Of a stretch of 64,000 nucleotides of DNA, positions 6,493 through 48,407 are shown piece after piece. The stretch spans positions 1 to 64,000 of the forward strand of contig JABDAZ010000007.1 of the NCBI GenBank assembly GCA_013288945.1. The letters are read 5' to 3'. How positions within the stretch are numbered: position 1 is the first letter of the stretch; every line of letters starts with the position of its first letter. The stretch is from Bacteroidota bacterium. Its GTDB lineage: Bacteria > Bacteroidota > Bacteroidia > Chitinophagales > Chitinophagaceae. The position numbers and the translations under genes were made by a program. The notes below the pieces were generated by a model, which searched no databases, was not told the DNA's origin, and saw nothing but the letters and a program-made list of their open reading frames with translations.

Positions 6493-7371
6493 TTATTTCG
6501 GCCGGTTTCGTCCTATAAAAAACTTCTTCAAAACTTTCACGTAATCCTCATCTGTACGAATGTGCAACAAATCTGATCCTGCTTTTAAAAAAATAGTTTT
6601 GCAATATTCCGTTGCATCAAAAAAATGTTGCTGGTAATTTTTTTGCACTAAAAAATCGCTGCTGTCAACCCATTGAATTTTTCCTGTTTCTGCATCTTCC
6701 ACTTCCAGCAAACCTGCGGATGGCAATTGCATATCCATTTTATCGTACACTTTCACGCCAGTAATATCATGTTTTTTTGAAGCCACTTTTAATGCTTCAT
6801 CAAACTTCTCATCTAAAAAATCGCTGAGTATAAAACAAATACTTTTTTGACGGATCGAATTATTAAAAAAGCGAATGGCTTCACTCAATTTTGTGCCTTT
6901 TCTTTTCGGCGTTGCCGTTAATAATTCGCGCACAATAAATAATGCGTGTTGCCTTCCTTTTTTTGGTGGAATATAACTTTCCACTTTATCACTAAATAAA
7001 ATTGCACCAACTTTATCATTGTTATTAATCGCTGAAAACGCAAGCACAGCGCAGATTTCTGTAATCATTTCCTGTTTGCTAGCATGCACCGTTCCGAATA
7101 AAGAACTTGCGCTTACATCAACTAACAACATCACCGTTAATTCTCTTTCTTCTTCAAATAATTTACTAAACGGATGATTGAAACGCGCGGAAACATTCCA
7201 ATCAATAAAACGTACATCATCGCCCGCAGCATATTCGCGCACTTCACGAAAGCTCATGCCGCGGCCTTTAAAAGCGCTGTGATACTCGCCCGTAAAAATA
7301 TGGCGTGTAAGCCTTTTGCTTTTAATCTCCAGCTCGCGGACTTTTTTTAATATTTCTGCGCTTGTTAGCAT
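6493..7371 (-). CDS. DUF58 domain protein of the moxR operon
   Basis: A 292-residue soluble protein with the DUF58 signature GRGMSFREVREYAAGDDVR (about residues 36-54) followed by IDWNVSARF, and a VWA-like fold with DVSAS as a degenerate MIDAS. DUF58 genes almost always follow moxR directly. Here a four-helix-bundle gene and its flanking repeats separate them by nearly 500 bases. The 30 bases upstream of ATG 7371 end in the left repeat arm. Confidence 0.9.
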   Translation of the reverse strand: MLTSAEILKKVRELEIKSKRLTRHIFTGEYHSAFKGRGMSFREVREYAAGDDVRFIDWNVSARFNHPFSKLFEEERELTVMLLVDVSASSLFGTVHASKQEMITEICAVLAFSAINNNDKVGAILFSDKVESYIPPKKGRQHALFIVRELLTATPKRKGTKLSEAIRFFNNSIRQKSICFILSDFLDEKFDEALKVASKKHDITGVKVYDKMDMQLPSAGLLEVEDAETGKIQWVDSSDFLVQKNYQQHFFDATEYCKTIFLKAGSDLLHIRTDEDYVKVLKKFFIGRNRPK

Positions 7372-7401
7372 TTTTATTCTTTACACATATATCATATAAA
7401 A

Positions 7402-7860
7402 GTTGACGGATGACAGTTGACAGATGACGGATTAAAATTTTAATAGGTTATTTCAACTTTTCTTTTTCGAAATAAGTAATTAATCCATTTAATATTCTCA
7501 TGCATTCATCTGTTAATACTGAAATCTCTTTAAATTTTTCTTCGTTAATAATTGCTGTCATTGAAGCAATATTTAATAACGTTTCTACTTCATACAAAGA
7601 TCCTCTGGCTATGTGAAAAAACTGGATGGAATCTTTTTTATAGTTGCGGCCAGAACCTTCAGCAATATTACACGGAACTGAAACTGTAGCTCTTTTTGTT
7701 TGCGCTGTTAAAACAAATAATTCCTCTTGAGGATAAGTTTTTAATAATAAATAAATTGCCTTAACCAATTGCATGGATTTTTTCCATGCTTCAAGGTTTT
7801 TATAATTTGTCATGAACAAGGTTTAATAACTCTATTCTCTGCCAACTGTCATCTGTCAAC
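7402..7860. mobile_element. Putative IVS-like cassette 1 (inverted repeats around a four-helix-bundle gene)
   Basis: Bases 7402-7419 (GTTGACGGATGACAGTTG) are the reverse complement of 7843-7860 with one mismatch in 18, and the left arm continues with a further TTGACAGATGAC to 7428. Between the arms lies only the four-helix-bundle gene. The right arm begins about four bases after the moxR stop. The same word family occurs as empty hairpins at 10754, 46227 and 47132. I infer an inserted unit; there is no transposase and no clear target duplication. Confidence 0.5.
7448..7813 (-). CDS. Four-helix-bundle protein, 23S rRNA IVS (S23) type
   Basis: A 121-residue all-helical protein. It opens YKNLEAWKKSMQLVKAIYLL and carries the family core TKRATVSVPCNIAEGSGR, diagnostic of the four-helix-bundle family named after proteins encoded in 23S rRNA intervening sequences and related to Avd of diversity-generating retroelements. 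The biochemical role is not established; members can bind nucleic acid. I use ATG 7813, not the TTG at 7819. It interrupts the moxR-DUF58 pair on the same strand and lies between inverted repeats. A second copy, about a third to a half similar by eye, is at 27360-27716. Confidence 0.88.
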   Translation of the reverse strand: MTNYKNLEAWKKSMQLVKAIYLLLKTYPQEELFVLTAQTKRATVSVPCNIAEGSGRNYKKDSIQFFHIARGSLYEVETLLNIASMTAIINEEKFKEISVLTDECMRILNGLITYFEKEKLK

Positions 7861-7864
7861 TTCT

Positions 7865-8866
7865 CTACGGCACCTGAATAGCTTTTAATACATCATCAAT
7901 CACAATTTCTACATTCACATTTTCGGCTTCTGCTTCATATGTTAATCCAATTCTGTGGCGCAAAACATCTTTGGAAATTGATCGTACATCTTCCGGAATT
8001 ACATAACCTCTTTTATTTAAAAATGCATTTGCTTTTGCAGCTAACGCAAGATTAATACTCGCACGTGGCGAACCTCCATATGCTATTAATGATTTTAATT
8101 TTTCGAGTTTATATTTTTCCGGAGAACGTGTTGCAAAAACAATATCCAGAATATAATTTTCAATTTTTTCATCCATATAAACCTGGCGGGTTAAATCCCT
8201 TGCCTGCAAAATTTCCTGCGTGGAAACAACTTGCTCAATCTGCGGAGATGTAATGCCCTGCACGTTTTGACGGATAATTAATTGTTCTTCCTGCTTGGTT
8301 GGATAATCAACAATTACTTTCATTATAAAACGATCCTGTTGTGCTTCCGGCAATGGATATGTTCCTTCTTGCTCCAGTGGATTTTGCGTAGCAAGAACTA
8401 AAAATGGTTCTTCTAATTTATAGCTCGTGTCGCCGAGTGTTACTTGTTTTTCCTGCATCGCTTCCAGTAATGCACTTTGCACTTTTGCAGGCGCGCGGTT
8501 TATTTCATCTGCCAAAACAAAATTGGCGAAGATGGGCCCTTTGCGTACTACAAATTCATTTCGTTGCTGATTATAGATCATCGTTCCGACAACATCGGCG
8601 GGCAATAAATCCGGCGTAAATTGAACGCGGCTAAACTTTGCGCGAATGGCTTGTGACAAAGATTTGATGGCAAGCGTTTTTGCCAGTCCTGGCACGCCTT
8701 CCAGCAAAATGTGGCCGCTGCTTAACAAGCCGATTAATAAGCGATCGATCATATAATGTTGCCCAACAATTACACGCGCAACCTCATCGCGCAAGCGATC
8801 AATAAATACACTTTGGTATTGAATTTTTTCATTGAGTTGCCTGATGTCTTCAGCAGTATAAACCAT
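7865..8866 (-). CDS. MoxR-family AAA+ ATPase
   Basis: A 333-residue ATPase with Walker A GVPGLAKT (57-64), Walker B FVLADE (D120, E121) followed by INRAPAKVQSALLEAMQE, and a C-terminal lid with SPRASINLALAAKA. MoxR proteins act as chaperone-like partners of VWA-domain proteins, which follow in this operon (DUF58, BatD-like, BatA). It is the first gene of the minus-strand unit and full length. Transcription should begin in the 224-base spacer shared with the divergent lipoprotein gene; I could not pick a convincing promoter. Confidence 0.92.
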   Translation of the reverse strand: MVYTAEDIRQLNEKIQYQSVFIDRLRDEVARVIVGQHYMIDRLLIGLLSSGHILLEGVPGLAKTLAIKSLSQAIRAKFSRVQFTPDLLPADVVGTMIYNQQRNEFVVRKGPIFANFVLADEINRAPAKVQSALLEAMQEKQVTLGDTSYKLEEPFLVLATQNPLEQEGTYPLPEAQQDRFIMKVIVDYPTKQEEQLIIRQNVQGITSPQIEQVVSTQEILQARDLTRQVYMDEKIENYILDIVFATRSPEKYKLEKLKSLIAYGGSPRASINLALAAKANAFLNKRGYVIPEDVRSISKDVLRHRIGLTYEAEAENVNVEIVIDDVLKAIQVP

Positions 8867-9840: not shown

Positions 9841-11589
9841 TTACGATAAATATTTTCCTACAATTGGCATTCTTCTTCCAACGCCAAATGCCTTGCAGCT
9901 TACGCGGATGATTGGGCAAAATTGATTGCGTTTGTATTCGTTTGTATTAACGAGTTTCAAAATACGGTTTACTAAATCTTTATCAATTCCCATGGCAATG
10001 ATTTCTTTTGGGCCCTGTCTTTTTTCAATGTATTGATACAACACTTTATCAAGCACATCATATTCAGGTAAACTATCACTGTCTTTTTGTTCGGGCCGCA
10101 ACTCTGCAGAAGGCGCTTTATCAATTATATTTTGCGGGATGATTTCATCATTTCTATTAATATATTTTGCGAGCGCATATACCTGCATTTTATAAATATC
10201 ACCAAGCACACTCAAGCCGCCAGCCATGTCGCCATACAAAGTTCCATAACCAGTTGAGAGTTCGCTTTTGTTGGAAGTGTTTAATAAAATATATCCAAAC
10301 TTGTTTGCGATTGCCATTAATAAATTTCCGCGCGATCTGCTTTGAATATTTTCTTCAGCAACATTAAAAGGCAAATCTTTAAACACAGGTTTTAGTTCTG
10401 TAAGAAATGCATCATAAATATTTTTTATCGGAATAATATCATATTCATTTCCCAGATTTTTTGACAATAATTCTGCATCACTTACGGAGTGTGTAGTTGA
10501 AAAATGTGAAGGCATTAATATTGCGCGCACGTTTTCTTTTCCCAAAGCTTCACAAGCCAAAGCCAGTACCACAGCGCTGTCTATGCCGCCACTACTTCCA
10601 AGAATTGCTTTTGTAAAACCCATTTTATAAAAATAATCGCGTATGCCAAGTATTAATGCTGCATGAATTTGTGCAATATTATTTTCAGCAGTCAGATAAT
10701 TAATAATGCTTGCCGGATCATTTTGTTTTGACACGCGCATTTCTTTATCGAAAGAGTTGACAGATGATGGTTGACTGTTGACAGACTTATTTTTATCTGT
10801 CATCTGTAAACTGTCAACTGTCAACTCATTTAAATCTTCAAGCACAGTTATAAAAAAGTCTTCTTCAAAAGATTTTAATTCTTTAACAATATTTCCACTC
10901 GCATCATACACTAAACTTCCGCCGTCAAAAACAATTTCTGTTTGCGAACCAACTGCGTTGCAATAAAACATCGGCAATTTATATTTCAGCACATTTGCAC
11001 GCACCACTTCTTTACGATCTTTATCATGATCATAATCGAATGGCGATGCAGAAATATTAATCATCACATCCGGTTGTTGTTTTATTAATTCATCCATCGG
11101 GCAAATTCTGTACAACGGATTATCGCCAAGGTTCCAGATATCTTCGCAAATCGTTAATGCAATTTTTTTGTTTTTAAATTCAATAATATTCCAGTTATAA
11201 GCAGGTTCAAAATATCTATTTTCATCAAACACATCATATGTTGGCAAACATGTTTTATGCGCAACACCTTTCACATCTTTTTCAAATAACAACCATGCAG
11301 CATTAAATAAATCTTTTCCTTCCGCTTGCGGATTTCTCTGCGGGCAACCAACGATTACTCCAATATTTTCTGTGTGCTGTTTTATAATATCAATTGCATT
11401 ATAACAAGCATTAATAAAATCTTCAAACTCCAAAAAATCGCGCGGAGGGTAACCGCAAATGGCGAGCTCGGAAAACACGATCAAATCTGCATTTTCTTTT
11501 TTTGCACGATCAATCGCTTCAATAATTTTACGTGTATTATTTTCGAAATTTCCGATGTGATAATTCTGTTGTGCGAGAACGATTTTCAT
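9841..11589 (-). CDS. nadE: Glutamine-dependent NAD+ synthetase
   Basis: A 582-residue two-domain enzyme. The N-terminal nitrilase-type glutaminase shows the catalytic triad E41 (FSELAICGYPP), K112 (HKTCLPTYDV) and C148 (LTICEDIW). The C-terminal synthetase has the pyrophosphate loop SGGIDS at 333-338. It makes NAD from deamido-NAD, ATP and glutamine-derived ammonia. The linker, residues about 255-280, is coded by a TGACAG-type hairpin repeat that keeps the frame open. The remaining sequence looks complete. It is divergent from gldB, a neighbour often seen in Bacteroidota. Confidence 0.94.
   Translation of the reverse strand: MKIVLAQQNYHIGNFENNTRKIIEAIDRAKKENADLIVFSELAICGYPPRDFLEFEDFINACYNAIDIIKQHTENIGVIVGCPQRNPQAEGKDLFNAAWLLFEKDVKGVAHKTCLPTYDVFDENRYFEPAYNWNIIEFKNKKIALTICEDIWNLGDNPLYRICPMDELIKQQPDVMINISASPFDYDHDKDRKEVVRANVLKYKLPMFYCNAVGSQTEIVFDGGSLVYDASGNIVKELKSFEEDFFITVLEDLNELTVDSLQMTDKNKSVNSQPSSVNSFDKEMRVSKQNDPASIINYLTAENNIAQIHAALILGIRDYFYKMGFTKAILGSSGGIDSAVVLALACEALGKENVRAILMPSHFSTTHSVSDAELLSKNLGNEYDIIPIKNIYDAFLTELKPVFKDLPFNVAEENIQSRSRGNLLMAIANKFGYILLNTSNKSELSTGYGTLYGDMAGGLSVLGDIYKMQVYALAKYINRNDEIIPQNIIDKAPSAELRPEQKDSDSLPEYDVLDKVLYQYIEKRQGPKEIIAMGIDKDLVNRILKLVNTNEYKRNQFCPIIRVSCKAFGVGRRMPIVGKYLS
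10754..10827. repeat. Hairpin repeat inside nadE
   Basis: Left arm 10754-10784 (starting GAGTTGACAGATGATGG) and right arm 10797-10827 are reverse complements at 25 of 31 positions, with a 12-base loop. The words are the TGACAG/TGTCA family found around the four-helix-bundle gene at 7448 and at 43801, 46227 and 47132. Translated in the nadE frame it gives a polar Ser/Asn/Asp/Lys-rich stretch between the two enzyme domains. Confidence 0.75.
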
Positions 11590-26208: not shown

Positions 26209-27363
26209 ATGAATTTATTCGACGTTTATCCAATCAATAATATTGCTATTACAAAAGCAAAAGGTTCTTATGTGTGGGATGAGGAAGGGCAACAATATTT
26301 GGATATGTATGGCGGTCACGCAGTGATTTCTATTGGCCATACGCATCCGCATTATGTGCAGCGAGTTACAGAGCAATTAAATAAAGTAGGATTTTATTCT
26401 AACTCAATTAAAATGCCTTTGCAAGAAGAACTCGCCGAAAAATTAGGAAAGATTTCAGGCAAGGAAGATTACCAATTATTTCTTTGCAACTCTGGTGCAG
26501 AAGCAAATGAAAATGCATTTAAGCTTGCTTCATTTTATAACAACAGAAAAAAAATTGTTGCATTTAAAAAATCATTTCATGGAAGAACTTCGCTTGCAGT
26601 TGCTGCGACTGACAACCCGAATATTATTGCGCCGGTAAATGAAAATGAAAATATTATTTTCTTACCGTTTAATGATGAAGCCGCGCTGGAAGCGTGTTTC
26701 AAAGAAAACGGTGATCAGATTTCTTCTGTAATAATTGAAGGTATTCAAGGCGTTGGTGGTATTAATGAAGCATCAAATTCTTTCTTACAAAAAATAAGCA
26801 GCCTTTGTAAAAAACACAATGCAATTTTTATTGCAGACAGTGTGCAGTGTGGTTATGGCCGCAGCGGAAAATTTTTCTCGCACGATTATGCTGGTGTTGA
26901 TGCAGACATTTATACAATGGCAAAAGGAATGGGCAATGGCTTTCCGGTTGCAGGAATTATTATTGCGCCGCACTTACAACCAAAGCATGGAATGCTTGGT
27001 ACAACTTTCGGTGGCAATCATCTCGCATGTGCTGCTGCGCTTGCTGTGCTTGAAGTTATTGAATCAGAAAACTTGATGAAGAATGCTGAAACGATTGGAA
27101 ATTATTTGATGGATGAATTGAAAAAAATTCCGCAGTTGCAAAATGTGCGCGGCAAAGGATTAATGATTGGTTTTGATGTTCCGGATGAATTAAAAAATTT
27201 GAGAAAAAATTTATTATTTAATCAACATATTTTTACGGGCGAGGCAAAACCGAATGTGATAAGATTATTGCCATCATTGGCTTTGCGGAAAAAAGATGCT
27301 GATGAATTTTTGGAGTCTATAATGTTGGAGCTGGAAGCTGAAAGCATAAAGCTTAAAGCATGA
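26209..27363 (+). CDS. argD: Acylornithine aminotransferase (ArgD)
   Basis: A 384-residue class III PLP aminotransferase. It shows NSGAEANENAFKLA (94-107), D210 in the cofactor loop and the PLP lysine K239 in YTMAKGMGNG. The usual D-E-x-Q of the cofactor loop reads D-S-V-Q. It transfers the amino group to acylglutamate semialdehyde, the fourth step. The final residues (ELEAESIKLKA) are coded by the left arm of the inverted repeat around the next gene, so the original C-terminus may have been replaced. Confidence 0.92.
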   Translation: MNLFDVYPINNIAITKAKGSYVWDEEGQQYLDMYGGHAVISIGHTHPHYVQRVTEQLNKVGFYSNSIKMPLQEELAEKLGKISGKEDYQLFLCNSGAEANENAFKLASFYNNRKKIVAFKKSFHGRTSLAVAATDNPNIIAPVNENENIIFLPFNDEAALEACFKENGDQISSVIIEGIQGVGGINEASNSFLQKISSLCKKHNAIFIADSVQCGYGRSGKFFSHDYAGVDADIYTMAKGMGNGFPVAGIIIAPHLQPKHGMLGTTFGGNHLACAAALAVLEVIESENLMKNAETIGNYLMDELKKIPQLQNVRGKGLMIGFDVPDELKNLRKNLLFNQHIFTGEAKPNVIRLLPSLALRKKDADEFLESIMLELEAESIKLKA

Positions 27364-27738
27364 GAGACTACAAAAAATATAATGTTTGGGAAAAAGGGCA
27401 TCAGCTTGTATTGTTTGTTTATAAAGAAATACTACCGTGTTTTCCAAAAAGCGAACAATTTAATTTGCAATCACAAGCTAAAAGATCTGCTTATTCCATT
27501 CCTTTAAATATCGTAGAAGGCTGCGGAAGAAATACCGATAAAGACTTTGTTCATTTTTTGGATATTTCGCTTGGTTCAGTGCAGGAATTTGAATATTGTA
27601 TTTTACTTGCCTTCGATTTAGGTTATCTTAATGAAGAAAAATATTCTAAAATAAATTTGATGGTAAATGAAGTAAAAGCAATGCTCATCGGATTAATTAA
27701 AACTATTCGAAAATAAAAAGGCTTTATGCTTTCAGCTT
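27335..27738. mobile_element. Putative IVS-like cassette 2 (perfect inverted repeats around a four-helix-bundle gene)
   Basis: AAGCTGAAAGCATAAAGC at 27335-27352 and its exact reverse complement at 27721-27738 form an 18-base perfect inverted repeat with 368 bases between. The only content is the four-helix-bundle gene. The left arm forms the end of argD, so the unit sits in the joint between argD and argF'. There is no transposase or target duplication. The arm sequence differs from that of cassette 1 but the layout is the same. Confidence 0.55.
27360..27716 (+). CDS. Four-helix-bundle protein, 23S rRNA IVS (S23) type
   Basis: A 118-residue helical protein. It opens YKKYNVWEKGHQLVLFVYKE and has the family core QAKRSAYSIPLNIVEGCGRN, the same group as 7448-7813. 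Its ATG overlaps the argD stop (ATGA) so it is coupled to argD translation. It separates argD from argF' and has no expected role in arginine synthesis. Both genes of this family in the window lie between inverted repeats and inside conserved operons, which suggests that the family travels as a cassette. Confidence 0.88.
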   Translation: MRDYKKYNVWEKGHQLVLFVYKEILPCFPKSEQFNLQSQAKRSAYSIPLNIVEGCGRNTDKDFVHFLDISLGSVQEFEYCILLAFDLGYLNEEKYSKINLMVNEVKAMLIGLIKTIRK

Positions 27739-27754
27739 TAAACTTTTAGCTAAA

Positions 27755-28729
27755 ATGAGAAATTTTATTTCTGTTAATGATGTTACTGATATTAATGTTT
27801 TGGTTAAAAAAGCATTGATGTATAAAGCAAATCCCTTTGCTGATAAAATATTGGGTATTAATAAACGTGTTGGTTTATTATTTCTTAACCCAAGTATGCG
27901 CACGCGATTGAGTACACAAATTGCTGCGCAAAATTTAGGTATGGATGTAATTGTTTTTAATGTTGATAAAGATGGCTGGGCGCTGGAGTTTGAAGAAGAA
28001 GCAATAATGAGTGGCAACACGGTTGAACATGTGAAAGATGCCGCGCCGATAATGGGAAAATATTTTGATATACTTTGTATACGCACTTTTCCATCGCTGA
28101 AAAATAAAGAAGATGATTACAGTGAATTGTATATTAAACAATTTATAAAATACTCGGGTATTCCGGTGGTGAGTTTAGAAAGTGCAACGCTGCATCCATT
28201 GCAATCGTTAACGGATATAATTACGATTAATGAAATTGTTGAAAATGAAAAAGTAAAAAGTAAAAAAGAAAAATTAAAAATAGTGCTTACATGGGCGCCG
28301 CATGTAAAGCCGCTTCCACAGTGTGTTGCAAACAGTTTTGCCGAATGGGTTAATAAATGGGGAAATGCAGATTTTGTAATTACGCATCCGGAAGATTACG
28401 ATTTGGATGAACGTTTTACAAAAGGCGCAACAATTATTAATGACCAGGATGAAGCACTGAAAGATGCTGATTTTGTGTATGTAAAAAATTGGAGCACGTA
28501 TAAAGATTACGGAAAAATTTATTGTAATGATCCTGAATGGATGCTTACTGATGAGAAATTAAAATTAACCAACAATGCAAAAGTGATGCATTGTTTGCCC
28601 GTGCGCAGAAATGTAGAATTGAGTGATGAAGTGCTAGACAGTAAAAATAGTATTGTTACACAAGAAGCCGGAAACCGTGTGTGGGCGGCACAAGCGGTGC
28701 TTTCAGAAATATTAAAATCCAATTATTAA
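27755..28729 (+). CDS. argF': N-acyl-L-ornithine carbamoyltransferase (ArgF')
   Basis: A 324-residue transcarbamylase. The carbamoyl-phosphate loop is SMRTRLSTQ (47-55); HPLQSLTD and HCLPVRRN are the other conserved sites. The sequence is of the N-acetyl/N-succinylornithine type, not ordinary ornithine carbamoyltransferase. The position that sets the acyl choice (Pro90 in Bacteroides SOTCase, Glu92 in Xanthomonas AOTCase) is Val90 here; published mutants of AOTCase suggest a non-Glu residue favours succinylornithine. About ten extra residues (VENEKVKSKKEKLK) are coded by an AAAAGTAAAAAGTAAAA repeat at 28249-28265. Confidence 0.9.
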   Translation: MRNFISVNDVTDINVLVKKALMYKANPFADKILGINKRVGLLFLNPSMRTRLSTQIAAQNLGMDVIVFNVDKDGWALEFEEEAIMSGNTVEHVKDAAPIMGKYFDILCIRTFPSLKNKEDDYSELYIKQFIKYSGIPVVSLESATLHPLQSLTDIITINEIVENEKVKSKKEKLKIVLTWAPHVKPLPQCVANSFAEWVNKWGNADFVITHPEDYDLDERFTKGATIINDQDEALKDADFVYVKNWSTYKDYGKIYCNDPEWMLTDEKLKLTNNAKVMHCLPVRRNVELSDEVLDSKNSIVTQEAGNRVWAAQAVLSEILKSNY

Positions 28730-30633: not shown

Positions 30634-31944
30634 ATGAAACTCTGGAGTAAAGAAAGTACAAATACATCGCAACTGATAGAAACTTTTACTGTTGGGCGCG
30701 ATAAAGAATTTGATATCCTGCTTGCAGAATATGATGTGTTGGGATCGCTTGCGCATACGCAAATGCTGGAAAGTGTTGGCTTATTAACGAAAGAAGAATT
30801 GGAAAAAATTCAAATTGGTTTAAAAGAAATTCTTGAACAAATTCACCATTCACAATTCACCATTCACCAAGATGTTGAAGATATACATTCGCAAATAGAA
30901 TTGTTATTAACTCAAAAAATTGGCGAAGCAGGAAAAAAAATTCATAGTGGAAGAAGCCGCAATGATCAGGTTGCTGTTGATATAAAATTATATTTACGCG
31001 CAGAAGTTTTATTAATAAAAGAAGAAGCAAAACAACTGTTTGATTTATTAATATCGCAAAGCGAAAAATATAAAAATAATTTATTACCAGGCTACACGCA
31101 CTTGCAAATTGCCATGCCATCATCGTTCGGTTTGTGGTTCGGCGCTTATGCAGAAAGTTTGGTTGATGATTTGGAATTGCTTGCAGCTTCATATCATATC
31201 ACAAACAAAAATCCGCTTGGAAGCGGCGCTGGCTACGGTTCTTCGTTTCCATTGAACAGAACAGCAACTACTCAAACATTAAACTTTCAAACATTAAATT
31301 ATAATTCTGTTTACGCACAAATAAGCCGTGGCAAAACAGAAAAAATTGTTGCCGTTGGATTAAGCACGATTGCTGCAACACTTAGCAAACTTGCCATGGA
31401 TTGTTGTTTGTTTATTAATCAAAACTTCGGTTTTATTTCTTTTCCAAATGAACTGACAACGGGCAGCAGCATTATGCCGCATAAAAAAAATCCTGATGTT
31501 TTTGAATTGATTCGTGCAAAATGCAACCGCATTCAATCGATTCCAAATGAGTTGACTTTATTAATAAATAATTTGCCGTCGGGCTATCACCGCGATTTAC
31601 AATTAACGAAGGAAATTCTTTTTCCTGCAATAGAAGAGTTGAAAGCTTGTTTGCAAATGACAAGATTAATGTTGTCAAATATTATTATTAAAGACAACAT
31701 TTTGAACGACGAAAAATATAAATATTTATTTAGTGTTGAAGCCGTTAATGAATTAGTAAATAAAGGAGTTTCATTTCGCGAAGCCTACAAACAAGTTGGA
31801 AACGATATTGAAAAAGGCGAATTTAATTTCGATTATAAAAAACAATTGCACCACACGCACGAGGGAAGCATCGGCAATTTATGCAATGATAAAATTGAAG
31901 AAGAAATGAGTAAGGTGTTAAAAAAATTTATTAACGGCAAATAA
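30634..31944 (+). CDS. argH: Argininosuccinate lyase
   Basis: A 436-residue fumarase/aspartase-superfamily enzyme. It has HSGRSRNDQV, the TNKNPLGSGAGYGSSFPLNR region, and the catalytic loop TTGSSIMPHKKNPD. It cleaves argininosuccinate to arginine and fumarate, the last step. The segment at 30841-30868 (ATTCACCATTCAC twice) codes for IHHSQFTIHQ, where relatives have acidic or charged residues, yet length is unchanged. Another repeat word, TCAAACATT, appears twice around 31274-31297. Confidence 0.93.
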   Translation: MKLWSKESTNTSQLIETFTVGRDKEFDILLAEYDVLGSLAHTQMLESVGLLTKEELEKIQIGLKEILEQIHHSQFTIHQDVEDIHSQIELLLTQKIGEAGKKIHSGRSRNDQVAVDIKLYLRAEVLLIKEEAKQLFDLLISQSEKYKNNLLPGYTHLQIAMPSSFGLWFGAYAESLVDDLELLAASYHITNKNPLGSGAGYGSSFPLNRTATTQTLNFQTLNYNSVYAQISRGKTEKIVAVGLSTIAATLSKLAMDCCLFINQNFGFISFPNELTTGSSIMPHKKNPDVFELIRAKCNRIQSIPNELTLLINNLPSGYHRDLQLTKEILFPAIEELKACLQMTRLMLSNIIIKDNILNDEKYKYLFSVEAVNELVNKGVSFREAYKQVGNDIEKGEFNFDYKKQLHHTHEGSIGNLCNDKIEEEMSKVLKKFINGK

Positions 31945-43800: not shown

Positions 43801-43980
43801 GAGATGACAGTTGGCAGATGACGGATGACAGAAAATAATGGCCGATGATCGTTGGCCGATGAGCGAAAGAAATTTTTAATGGATAATTGATAATTTATTA
43901 ATGGATAATAAAAACAGAATCGGCCAACGGCCATCAAATAACGATCAACGTAAAATACTGTTAACTGCGAACCGTCAACT
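43801..43980. repeat. Nested composite hairpin element
   Basis: Five blocks in mirror order: TGACAG words 43801-43831, GGCCGATGATCGTTGG words 43837-43865, TAATGGATAATTGATAA words about 43878-43908 in the middle, GGCC/CGATC words 43919-43950, and TGTTAACTG words 43958-43980. Outer and inner pairs are imperfect reverse complements. The right end overlaps the stop codon (TAG, 43979-43981) of the next gene. It looks like two hairpin families nested in each other. Confidence 0.6.

Positions 43981-48373: not shown

Positions 48374-48407
<34 letters not shown>

Follow-up and report, generated by a model that had tools for sequence, protein, structure and literature searches.

PF05635 four-helix-bundle genes framed by inverted 7- to 9-base arrays: a candidate spreading element in bacteria

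Two cassettes in a 64-kb window

The window, the whole 64 kb stretch of DNA analysed here, contains a compact cassette within an arginine operon. It lies between an argD-type aminotransferase gene (26209–27363, plus strand), named by an earlier sequence-only reading and from its place in the operon, and an argF'-type carbamoyltransferase gene (27755–28729, plus strand), whose name is that reading's own. The cassette consists of an upstream heptamer array (27329–27359, plus strand) that overlaps the 3' end of argD, one gene (27360–27716, plus strand; 118 aa) and a downstream array (27721–27751, plus strand) inverted relative to the first. As the sequence-only reading had pointed out, the arrays hold the arms of a perfect inverted repeat (27335–27352 and 27721–27738; 18 nt each, 100% complementary, separation 368 nt). 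This is the sole perfect 18-mer inverted pair in the window with starts at most 450 bases apart, and 60 first-order Markov sequences of window length contained none. The assignment of the only gene between the arms to the PF05635/TIGR02436 family was borne out by a profile search, with E=1.5e-35 for PF05635 (122.1 bits against a curated cut-off of 33.8) and E=1.7e-33 for TIGR02436 (115.1 against 24 bits). The AlphaFold model of the protein shows four helices at a mean pLDDT of 97.9. It was also right that the left arm supplies the last codons of argD: these come from the left array, and the argD ORF stops at 27363, at the junction of array and gene, overlapping the start codon of the cassette gene (ATGA). 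The site lies outside any 23S rRNA gene, and an Rfam search of the window returned no family over cut-off.

The arms in the window are parts of degenerate 7-base tandem arrays (AAGCTGA AAGCATA AAGCTTA AAGC, and TGACGGA TGACAGT TGACAGA TGACGGA). Among periodic segments of the window with a score of at least 12, lag 7 accounts for 10 and its harmonic, lag 14, for 6; the other lags from 2 to 19 gave 0–3. A second gene, described in the sequence-only reading as having the same layout, indeed has it: this PF05635 gene (7448–7813, minus strand; E=1.4e-35 in the profile search) sits between 30-nt arms (7395–7424 and 7838–7867) that are 87% complementary. Its upstream array spans 7838–7867 (minus strand) and its downstream array 7395–7436 (minus strand). 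Arrays without a gene are present as well. Two have the unit of the second cassette, one inside a mechanically called ORF (10795–10826, ATCTGTCATCTGTAAACTGTCAACTGTCAACT) and one intergenic and judged alike by eye (43802–43832, AGATGACAGTTGGCAGATGACGGATGACAGA). An AAAAGTA-type heptamer array (28242–28281) lies inside argF', in a loop of variable length among relatives, and an (ATTCACC)n array (30841–30869) lies inside the ORF 30634–31944. The arrays of 7-, 8- or 9-base units, the gene-less arrays elsewhere and the family-wide rule across phyla had all escaped the sequence-only reading.

Inverted arrays around PF05635 genes across phyla

The family-wide analysis started from 146 loci. Three of them (L021, L162 and L201) yielded no ORF hit and the other 143 yielded 150, from which six ORFs were removed for being too short or having too little flank; 144 genes at 138 loci remained. 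One peptide pattern gave 591 confirmed candidates, and the best 80 of these make up the named loci, which therefore favour canonical members. Arms were considered significant when their score exceeded the 95th percentile of mismatched-locus pairs. By this measure inverted arms were found at 128 of the 144 genes, in many phyla, and direct-orientation arms over the same threshold at 18 of 144. On inspection by eye, the top-scoring pair of arms in a few of the 128 (e.g. L153, L157 and L184) is something other than the array; conversely, three of the 16 genes without significant arms (L014, L026 and L205) show arrays by eye. A survey of the window's own genome, suggested by the sequence-only reading, found significant inverted arms at all nine PF05635 copies, each with its own unit.

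The period of the arrays was 7 in 96 of the 128 genes, 8 in 29, 9 in two and 5 in one. The best lag is the same on both sides in 113 of the 128 (7-7 in 85, 8-8 in 27, 9-9 in one) and unequal in 15; the mixture 7-8 did not occur and 8-7 occurred twice (Fisher P=4e-24 for 7 versus 8). A lag-7 score of at least 9 on both sides was reached by 26 of 35 PF05635 genes versus 1 of 25 control ORFs of the same loci. On the protein tree, which kept 117 proteins after loci with a period margin below 4, other periods and duplicate proteins were left out, the array period changes 8 times, versus 24.5 expected and a minimum of 19 in 500 shuffles. Inverted arrays of 7-, 8- or 9-base units are thus a rule of the PF05635 family across phyla and not a peculiarity of the arginine operon, and the period is stably tied to the protein lineage.

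The number of PF05635 genes ranges from 0 to 17 across related genomes (17 copies in G203), and some copies are broken. A tblastn search with one query gave no PF05635 match in phages. To our knowledge, the family has neither a catalytic motif nor an assigned function.

Empty sites, shared arrays and gene-less relatives

Among 32 relatives searched for the argD-argF' site, three gave no locus, and in all 29 with a fetched locus the spacer does not exceed 183 nt and could not accommodate the gene. The sequence-only reading had held against its own proposal the case that relatives all keep the gene at this site, or that most copies in this genome lack inverted repeats at their edges; with 29 of 29 empty sites and nine of nine copies with arms, neither is so.

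Cassettes whose proteins are alike also have arrays that are alike, even at unrelated sites, and gene and arrays therefore travel together. In locus pairs without any shared flanking gene, array likeness (score of at least 13) was seen in 2% of pairs at 30–40% protein identity, in 33% at 60–65% (n=105), in 78% at 65–70% (n=18) and in 11 of 11 above 70%, these 11 pairs coming from four groups of loci, with 8 pairs among six loci. The gene and both arrays are thus one unit present at unrelated sites, although the different-site pairs may alternatively stem from entire regions having been transferred horizontally, with later divergence of their flanks. This binned comparison was used in place of a Mantel-type test over all pairs, which gave r=0.078 (9 of 1000 permutations as high); r is low because arrays begin to resemble each other only once proteins share more than about 60% identity.

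The presence of a cassette at one site varies between close species, and units are unlike at orthologous sites of different species. Mean own-arm scores were higher than cross-species scores at four of four orthologous sites (24.0/12.4, 19.3/13.6, 18.0/11.7 and 18.7/14.3), while in only 10 of 24 rows did the own arm score above all foreign ones. This pattern in the arm sequences is suggestive of a concerted, if not uniform, change of both arms. Both neighbours were present in 28 of the 30 loci of the filled and unfilled site comparison (not in L265 and L283). The gmk-nadD spacers with and without a cassette differ from end to end, so that a target-site duplication is not definable there, and no transposition event was observed in the genomes compared. 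An apparently flipped cassette (G007 versus G026; L028/L029) was left out of the analysis because of NN at one array edge, and because arrays in inverted orientation can lead to misassembly.

Arrays of the resident gene's unit also occur away from the gene. Gene-less inverted pairs of period 7 or 8 numbered 10 in 700 kb, in six of 26 gene-bearing genomes (four of the ten in G013), and 730 kb from 24 genomes lacking a PF05635 gene contained none, the gene-bearing and gene-less stretches having a G+C of 0.40 and 0.48, respectively. Within the genus, 379 kb of gene-bearing sequence, the window among it, contained 22 lag-7 segments, 400 kb without the gene contained 1, and 80 kb from two genomes that each had a single match contained none. 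In G013, 58 of 72 arrays had their best match in a cassette of the same genome, with 17.4 expected. With two random cassettes per genome this advantage was gone (own 11.5, G012 13.5, window's genome, G000, 12.7), because the arrays match particular cassettes. The gene-less arrays of the window's own genome match its cassettes weakly (3.5 of 7 versus 2.2 expected). An inverted partner was present for 1 of 9 gene-less arrays in the window's genome, 33 of 74 in G013 and 6 of 15 in G019; completeness is 73% for the window's genome and 74% for G013. Several gene-less arrays are intergenic and others lie inside coding genes.

Two genomes with a single PF05635 gene each were tried in opposite directions, and in both the unit at the gene's flanks is that of the scattered arrays. 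In G453, the unit taken from the flanks has 124+122 (246) pattern matches, and 0–1 in 15 other genomes. For G665, the published Xanthomonas GGGAATC repeats led to the prediction that the gene would lie inside such arrays; the genome has them, with at least six array places listed, and its gene sits among them. Several genomes thus also have the resident gene's unit dispersed in arrays without a gene, some of which form inverted pairs.

Interpretation and known systems

These results suggest that the four-helix gene and its heptamer arrays are an overlooked kind of spreading element. We consider it probable, at about 0.58, that a compact cassette, with a PF05635 gene placed in sense in an operon and framed by inverted short-unit arrays, spreads in a REPIN/RAYT-like manner. 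The PF05635 protein would recognise the repeated unit in the array or in an array hairpin, conceivably with one protein subunit per repeat unit, and this recognition would let host replication enzymes copy or move the cassette and the gene-less arrays alike. The outcome would be a REPIN/RAYT-like pair of one protein and many small dependants. The rRNA intervening sequences (IVSs) would be the case in which the element had inserted into a 23S rRNA gene, and sense placement would be kept since the gene would rely for expression solely on the transcript of its insertion site.

A bolder version is possible, but we hold it only tentatively. It would make the cassette a new class of element, in which a four-helix protein assembling in fives writes, maintains and spreads 7–9-base arrays without a known nuclease, transposase or polymerase partner. 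Two solved relatives of the protein have five chains each in their crystal entries, and one is described as a five-bundle assembly. On the same tentative footing, the protein lineage might dictate unit length and sequence both around the gene and in gene-less arrays in trans. The rRNA IVSs and the published heptamer families (Xanthomonas, perhaps Nostoc and Calothrix) might then, just as tentatively, be its visible traces.

The sequence-only reading had proposed an IVS-like element in mRNA. Its mobile cassette with inverted repeats, found in operons and absent from the site in relatives, is supported; its RNase III mechanism at the mRNA level is not. In such a mechanism the gene's message would be cut out by RNase III once the arms had paired in the transcript, so that the insertion is harmless and selection acts on the RNA. 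Genes between co-directional neighbours are indeed in sense in 97 cases versus 5 antisense, and the upstream neighbour is on the same strand in 124:9 and the downstream one in 106:23, as counted from mechanical longest ORFs. In the fold predicted for the transcript of the window cassette the two arms pair with each other (z=-3.56), and none of 100 shuffled sequences was as stable; the Coxiella IVS, with heptamers in its stem region, is cut by RNase III in vitro (PMC4990558, in the part available). Although the transcript can fold into a stem, the arm mismatches show no excess of G.U over A.C (208 versus 221; 35 versus 50 for isolated mismatches), which leaves selection for a cut RNA stem unsupported, and gene-less arrays of the same unit elsewhere, like those inside coding genes, are left unexplained. 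We therefore regard this explanation as unlikely.

It is also doubtful that the protein is a domesticated regulator, which would bind array hairpins in several mRNAs and affect their stability or translation, with the arrays as dispersed operators and the gene autoregulated. One gene with many cognate arrays in G453, the array places of G665, the intergenic position of several arrays and the sense placement of the genes would fit. However, gene number and site presence change between related genomes, orthologous sites carry different units and broken copies occur, all of which points to selfish DNA rather than a conserved regulator, and the symmetry of the arm mismatches speaks against RNA pairing.

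We give very little credence to an accessory role in trans, either for a reverse transcriptase (Avd-like, as in diversity-generating retroelements) or for a Y1 (HUH) transposase. The cassette protein does match the Avd models, at scores below their cut-offs (PF22296 bAvd, 24.0 against 40 bits; NF033474, 30.3 against 80 bits), a likeness of PF05635 to Avd is stated in the part of PMC10053308 available, and the single reverse transcriptase match of the window's genome (G000:C50:9608-10156) lies about 2 kb from a PF05635 copy (C50:7222-7536). Yet among 20 gene-bearing genomes searched at E<=0.001, 13 had no match to PF00078 (reverse transcriptase), including G203 with its 17 copies, and 7 had none to PF01797 (Y1_Tnp); G029, 99% complete, matched neither. 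Neither protein, as defined by these two models, is thus an obligate partner, a role refuted by the gene-bearing genomes without matches, and no partner was found. Equally improbable is neutral slippage, in which arrays arise anywhere by replication slippage and palindrome correction and PF05635 genes are merely located there: heptamers are over-represented in many bacterial genomes with no gene link (PMC4692102, available part), their number differs between Coxiella strains (PMC4990558, likewise) and some window arrays match no cassette of its genome well, but control ORFs and the stretches analysed from genomes without the gene are nearly free of arrays, the dispersed unit is that of the resident gene in G013, G453 and G665, and the period follows the protein tree.

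REPIN/RAYT-like spread can be set beside the systems already described. The accessible part of PMC4990558 reports tandem heptamers just upstream of the S23p ORF in the Coxiella IVS, in a copy number variable between strains, and calls the function and origin of rRNA IVSs unclear in 2016, more than 25 years after their discovery. The likeness is a PF05635-type gene between complementary arms with tandem heptamers beside it and, together with the sense placement, strengthens the link to rRNA IVSs drawn by the sequence-only reading. The known IVSs are in 23S rRNA genes, whereas the present cassettes are found between protein-coding genes, number up to 17 per searched genome and have gene-less array relatives.

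RAYT/REPIN systems (REPtrons) combine a repeat beside a protein gene, many gene-less inverted doublets and co-evolution of repeat and protein, according to the available parts of PMC3116915 and PMC8266576. The layout resembles them, in that a PF05635 gene is flanked by its repeat (128 of 144) and gene-less inverted doublets are dispersed in other genomes, weakly so in the window's own, yet the protein is no known transposase. RAYTs are Y1/HUH transposases, whereas the PF05635 protein is a four-helix bundle matching PF05635 (weakly bAvd) only, and the tandem 7–9-base units differ from a palindrome of 20–40 bp, a size taken from an abstract. The rule would give the RAYT/REPIN way of life a second protein, unrelated to the first. 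To Avd/bAvd the likeness is one of related four-helix proteins, with the difference from diversity-generating retroelements that no reverse transcriptase is needed.

Heptamer repeats themselves have been described before. Three tandem heptanucleotides were reported in the cyanobacterium Calothrix (PMC4692102, part available). In our data arrays also surround PF05635 genes at 8 of 8 cyanobacterial plasmid loci inspected (of 32 hits; two near-identical). We take the Calothrix heptanucleotides to be STRR and know of no gene linked to them. The available text of PMC4692102 further describes intergenic heptamer arrays, of GGGGA(C/T)T in Nostoc and of GGGAATC in Xanthomonas, where many form inverted pairs (one strain has 70); it treats both as G-quadruplex sequences and contains none of the words tried for a PF05635-type gene. 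The single PF05635 gene of G665 is framed by GGGAATC arrays. A simple genome test follows, namely to compare the unit at the gene's flanks with that of the scattered arrays, and the gene-array rule gives the family a testable function. PF05635 genes are common and many-copied, and heptamer repeats in bacteria have so far been without a cause; one rule, a gene within inverted 7/8/9-base arrays with the same unit in trans, would tie this family, the rRNA IVSs and the heptamer repeats together.

Inverted arrays around PF05635 genes

Comparison of the arms confirmed that the 18-base inverted repeat described around the gene between argD and argF' is exact. No other perfect 18-mer inverted pair in the window has starts at most 450 bases apart, and none of 60 simulated first-order Markov sequences contained one. 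Profile searches assigned the enclosed gene (27360-27716) to PF05635/TIGR02436. Its protein model has four helices (mean pLDDT 97.9); two solved structures match the PF05635 profile, 2rld and 2gsc, with five chains in either entry, and the title of the 2gsc paper, as cited in PMC10053308, names five four-helix bundles. The ATG of the gene overlaps the argD stop, and the ORF ends bear out that the left array supplies the last argD codons. Both arms consist of degenerate tandem repeats with a 7-base unit. In a window scan for periodic segments scoring at least 12, lag 7 gave 10 and its harmonic lag 14 gave 6; the remaining lags in 2-19 gave 0-3 each. The second gene (7448-7813, minus strand) has the like layout attributed to it, with 30-nt arms (87%). 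The genome of the window (assembly 73% complete) holds nine PF05635 matches, and inverted arms, which the sequence-only reading had tied to this family, were significant at all nine; by eye, the units of these cassettes are mutually different.

Other arrays were seen in the window. One lies inside argF' (28242-28281), in a loop after ..TINE and before KIVLTWAPH whose length varies across 26 aligned sequences, the window's own among them. Another consists of four and a half perfect CATCTCG units between convergent ORFs (48374-48405); no inverted partner reached the threshold over the next 700 bases downstream.

For 35 PF05635 genes of the genus, each flank was scored at lags 4-12. Lag 7 came out best on 30 left and on 30 right flanks, and lag 8 on both flanks of two genes. 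A lag-7 score of at least 9 on both sides was reached by 26 of the 35, versus 1 of 25 control ORFs from the same loci. We then combined the genus loci with 30 loci of the taxonomic family and 80 named loci (the best 80 of 591), the record titles of which include Bacteroidota, Clostridia, Planctomycetes, Nitrospirae, Desulfobacteraceae, Acidobacteria, Verrucomicrobia, candidate phyla, a methanophagalean archaeon and others. Arms counted as significant when their score exceeded the 95th percentile obtained by pairing arms across different loci. Inverted arms were significant in 128 of 144 usable genes (genus 32/34, family 29/30, named loci, as the best 80 of 591, 67/80), and direct ones in 18 of 144. 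The period in the 128 genes was 7 in 96, 8 in 29, 9 in 2 and 5 in 1. Left and right lags were equal in 113 (7-7 in 85, 8-8 in 27, 9-9 in 1); the mixed combination 8-7 occurred in 2 loci and 7-8 in none. On the protein tree the 7/8 period state requires 8 changes, with shuffled labels averaging 24.5 (minimum 19). Arrays also surround the gene in all 8 cyanobacterial plasmid loci inspected, out of 32 hits. Inverted tandem arrays around the gene are thus a rule of the PF05635 family.

Single loci showed further arrangements. Two of the inspected cyanobacterial plasmid cassettes sit in CRISPR operons, L218 between cas6 and cas4 and L221 between cas10/cmr2 and a cmr3-type gene. Nine-base units flank the cassette of L208, from a Muribaculaceae-titled record, and L170 was also assigned period 9. 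Locus L026 reads array, gene, direct-orientation array and the apparent start of a second PF05635 copy, and L215 and L216 each carry two PF05635 genes close together.

The survey PMC4692102 reports that Xanthomonas carries GGGAATC heptamers, of which 70 form inverted pairs in a single strain, and gives no cause for them. Xcc0516 of Xanthomonas campestris is a PF05635 protein. We predicted that a genome with GGGAATC arrays has its PF05635 gene among them, and this held. Across 369 genomes of the class that includes G295 (the source of locus L206), three-unit GGGAATC arrays occurred in G665 only, which we infer to be a Xanthomonas relative; the reversed control gave 8 matches in another genome, G453. 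Each of these two genomes has exactly one PF05635 match. That of G665 is frameshifted, with CGGGAATCGGCAATGGGGAATCGGGAATCG upstream and TCCCTACTCCCCATTCCCGATTCCCG downstream, between neighbours read as accB and accC. That of G453 has inverted AGGGCYR arrays at both sides. This unit matched G453 124 times in forward and 122 times in reverse orientation, with matches that overlap, so that arrays are fewer; in 15 other genomes, including the gene-bearing G665 and G295, it gave 0 in 14 and 1 in one. Its reversed control gave 0 in G453 and 12 in G665.

Probable joint mobility of gene and arrays

The proposal of a mobile cassette gained support from comparison of sites. Of 32 relatives searched, 29 yielded an argD-argF' spacer, and it was gene-less and at most 183 nt long in all 29. 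Four of them have a related gene directly upstream of argD instead. By eye, the spacer of L039 contains a gene-less inverted array. Between gmk and nadD, 28 Flavobacterium genomes with both neighbours carried the cassette in 6 cases, other DNA in 2 and no gene in 20. PF05635 copy number ranges from 0 to 17 per genome in 195 genomes of the taxonomic family.

We further compared cassettes that had no neighbouring gene in common over the flank fetched (at most 2.5 kb), calling arrays alike at a score of at least 13. The alike fraction increased with protein identity from 2% (30-40% identity) through 4%, 5% (50-55%) and 10% to 33% at 60-65% (n=105), and 78% at 65-70% (n=18); above 70% identity all 11 pairs, from four groups of loci, were alike (100%). 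Since array likeness rises with protein identity at unrelated sites, gene and arrays probably travel together. They would do so across phyla for the AGGCACAA octamer group, which spans Nitrospirae, Desulfobacteraceae and KSB1 titles and a Chitinophagaceae genome. In the sister genomes G007 and G026, the same cassette (L028, L029) is oppositely oriented relative to its flanks; an NN stands at one array edge, and an assembly error is possible.

Gene-less arrays

Hairpins reached by at most 2 of 200 shuffles were present in 17 of the 20 gene-less gmk-nadD spacers, and in 7 of these the best-fitting period was 7 or 8, scoring at least 7.8 (e.g. L284, L276). Some of the remaining hairpins may be ordinary terminators. 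In the Flavobacterium loci L256 and L258-L263 this spacer is filled by gene-less hairpins whose unit is decamer-like, CACAGAGATT CGC..., with a weak period-10 signal. The spacer of L279 holds a different type of repeat, several tandem copies of a hairpin whose arms are of GAGACGCGAT type.

Random stretches of genomes with at least three PF05635 genes (700 kb, 26 genomes) contained 10 inverted arrays of period 7 or 8, spread over 6 genomes with 4 in G013. None was found in 730 kb from 24 genomes without the gene, nor in three genomes with a single match (95 kb); G+C differs between these sets (0.40, 0.48 and 0.42, respectively) and is a confounder. Inverted arrays of other periods numbered 3, 0 and 0.

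We matched gene-less arrays against a pool of 29 cassettes from G013, G019 and the window's genome. G013 has 74 such arrays in 340 kb, and an own-genome cassette was best for 58 of 72 scorable ones (17.4 expected). The corresponding values were 10 of 12 in G019 (5.4 expected) and a weak 3.5 of 7 in the window's genome (2.2 expected). When each genome is represented by two random cassettes, the own-genome advantage disappears, because gene-less arrays match particular cassettes. A partner in inverted orientation lay within 300 nt in 33/74, 6/15 and 1/9 cases, respectively; most gene-less arrays of the window's genome are therefore single.

Level of action and known systems

A reverse transcriptase or a Y1 transposase as obligate partner is excluded by gene-bearing genomes with no match to the one or the other. 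At E<=0.001, 13 of the 20 gene-bearing genomes searched had no match to PF00078 (8 of 14 when only those at least 90% complete are counted), and 7 of 20 had none to PF01797; G029 (99% complete) matched neither. On contig C50 of the window's genome, about 2 kb separate a PF05635 gene (7222-7536) from the sole reverse transcriptase match of that genome (9608-10156).

The sequence-only reading had placed these cassettes as IVS-like elements in mRNA. The arm stem can form in the predicted window transcript (z=-3.56), and between co-directional genes the orientation is 97 sense to 5 antisense. Upstream neighbours lie on the same versus the opposite strand in 124 to 9 cases and downstream ones in 106 to 23; adjacent control pairs were 209 same and 65 different. 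However, A.C arm mismatches are as frequent as G.U ones (221 vs 208; isolated ones 50 vs 35), so the trait being kept does not appear to be pairing in sense RNA. The IVS likeness stood and extends to the heptamers; a kept RNA stem cut by RNase III was not supported. In left arms G outnumbers C (1564 to 553), which gives the arrays polarity. We read this as the unit being recognised at DNA level, or as copying of DNA between the arms; sense placement would be retained because the gene depends on the operon transcript.

The wider result is a system of gene plus arrays across the family, and in some genomes gene-less arrays are dispersed as well. We favour a mobile PF05635 gene with inverted arrays, RAYT/REPIN-like with gene-less dependants, at somewhat better than even odds (roughly 0.6), slightly reduced by the mostly single gene-less arrays of the window's genome. 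Beyond the Coxiella paper PMC4990558, we found no literature linking PF05635 to heptamer arrays, in a search of titles, abstracts and passages mostly from outside subscription journals. PF05635 genes and dispersed arrays appear to work like RAYT/REPIN, but the transposase of RAYT is missing here, and the system is therefore not a member. With the rRNA IVS, gene and arms are common to both, although the cassette between argD and argF' is not an IVS by location. According to PMC4990558, the Coxiella IVS has three tandem GACAGAT heptamers and a variant directly upstream of its S23p ORF, in numbers that differ among strains; heptamers beside the gene are thus a trait common to this IVS and the PF05635 cassettes.
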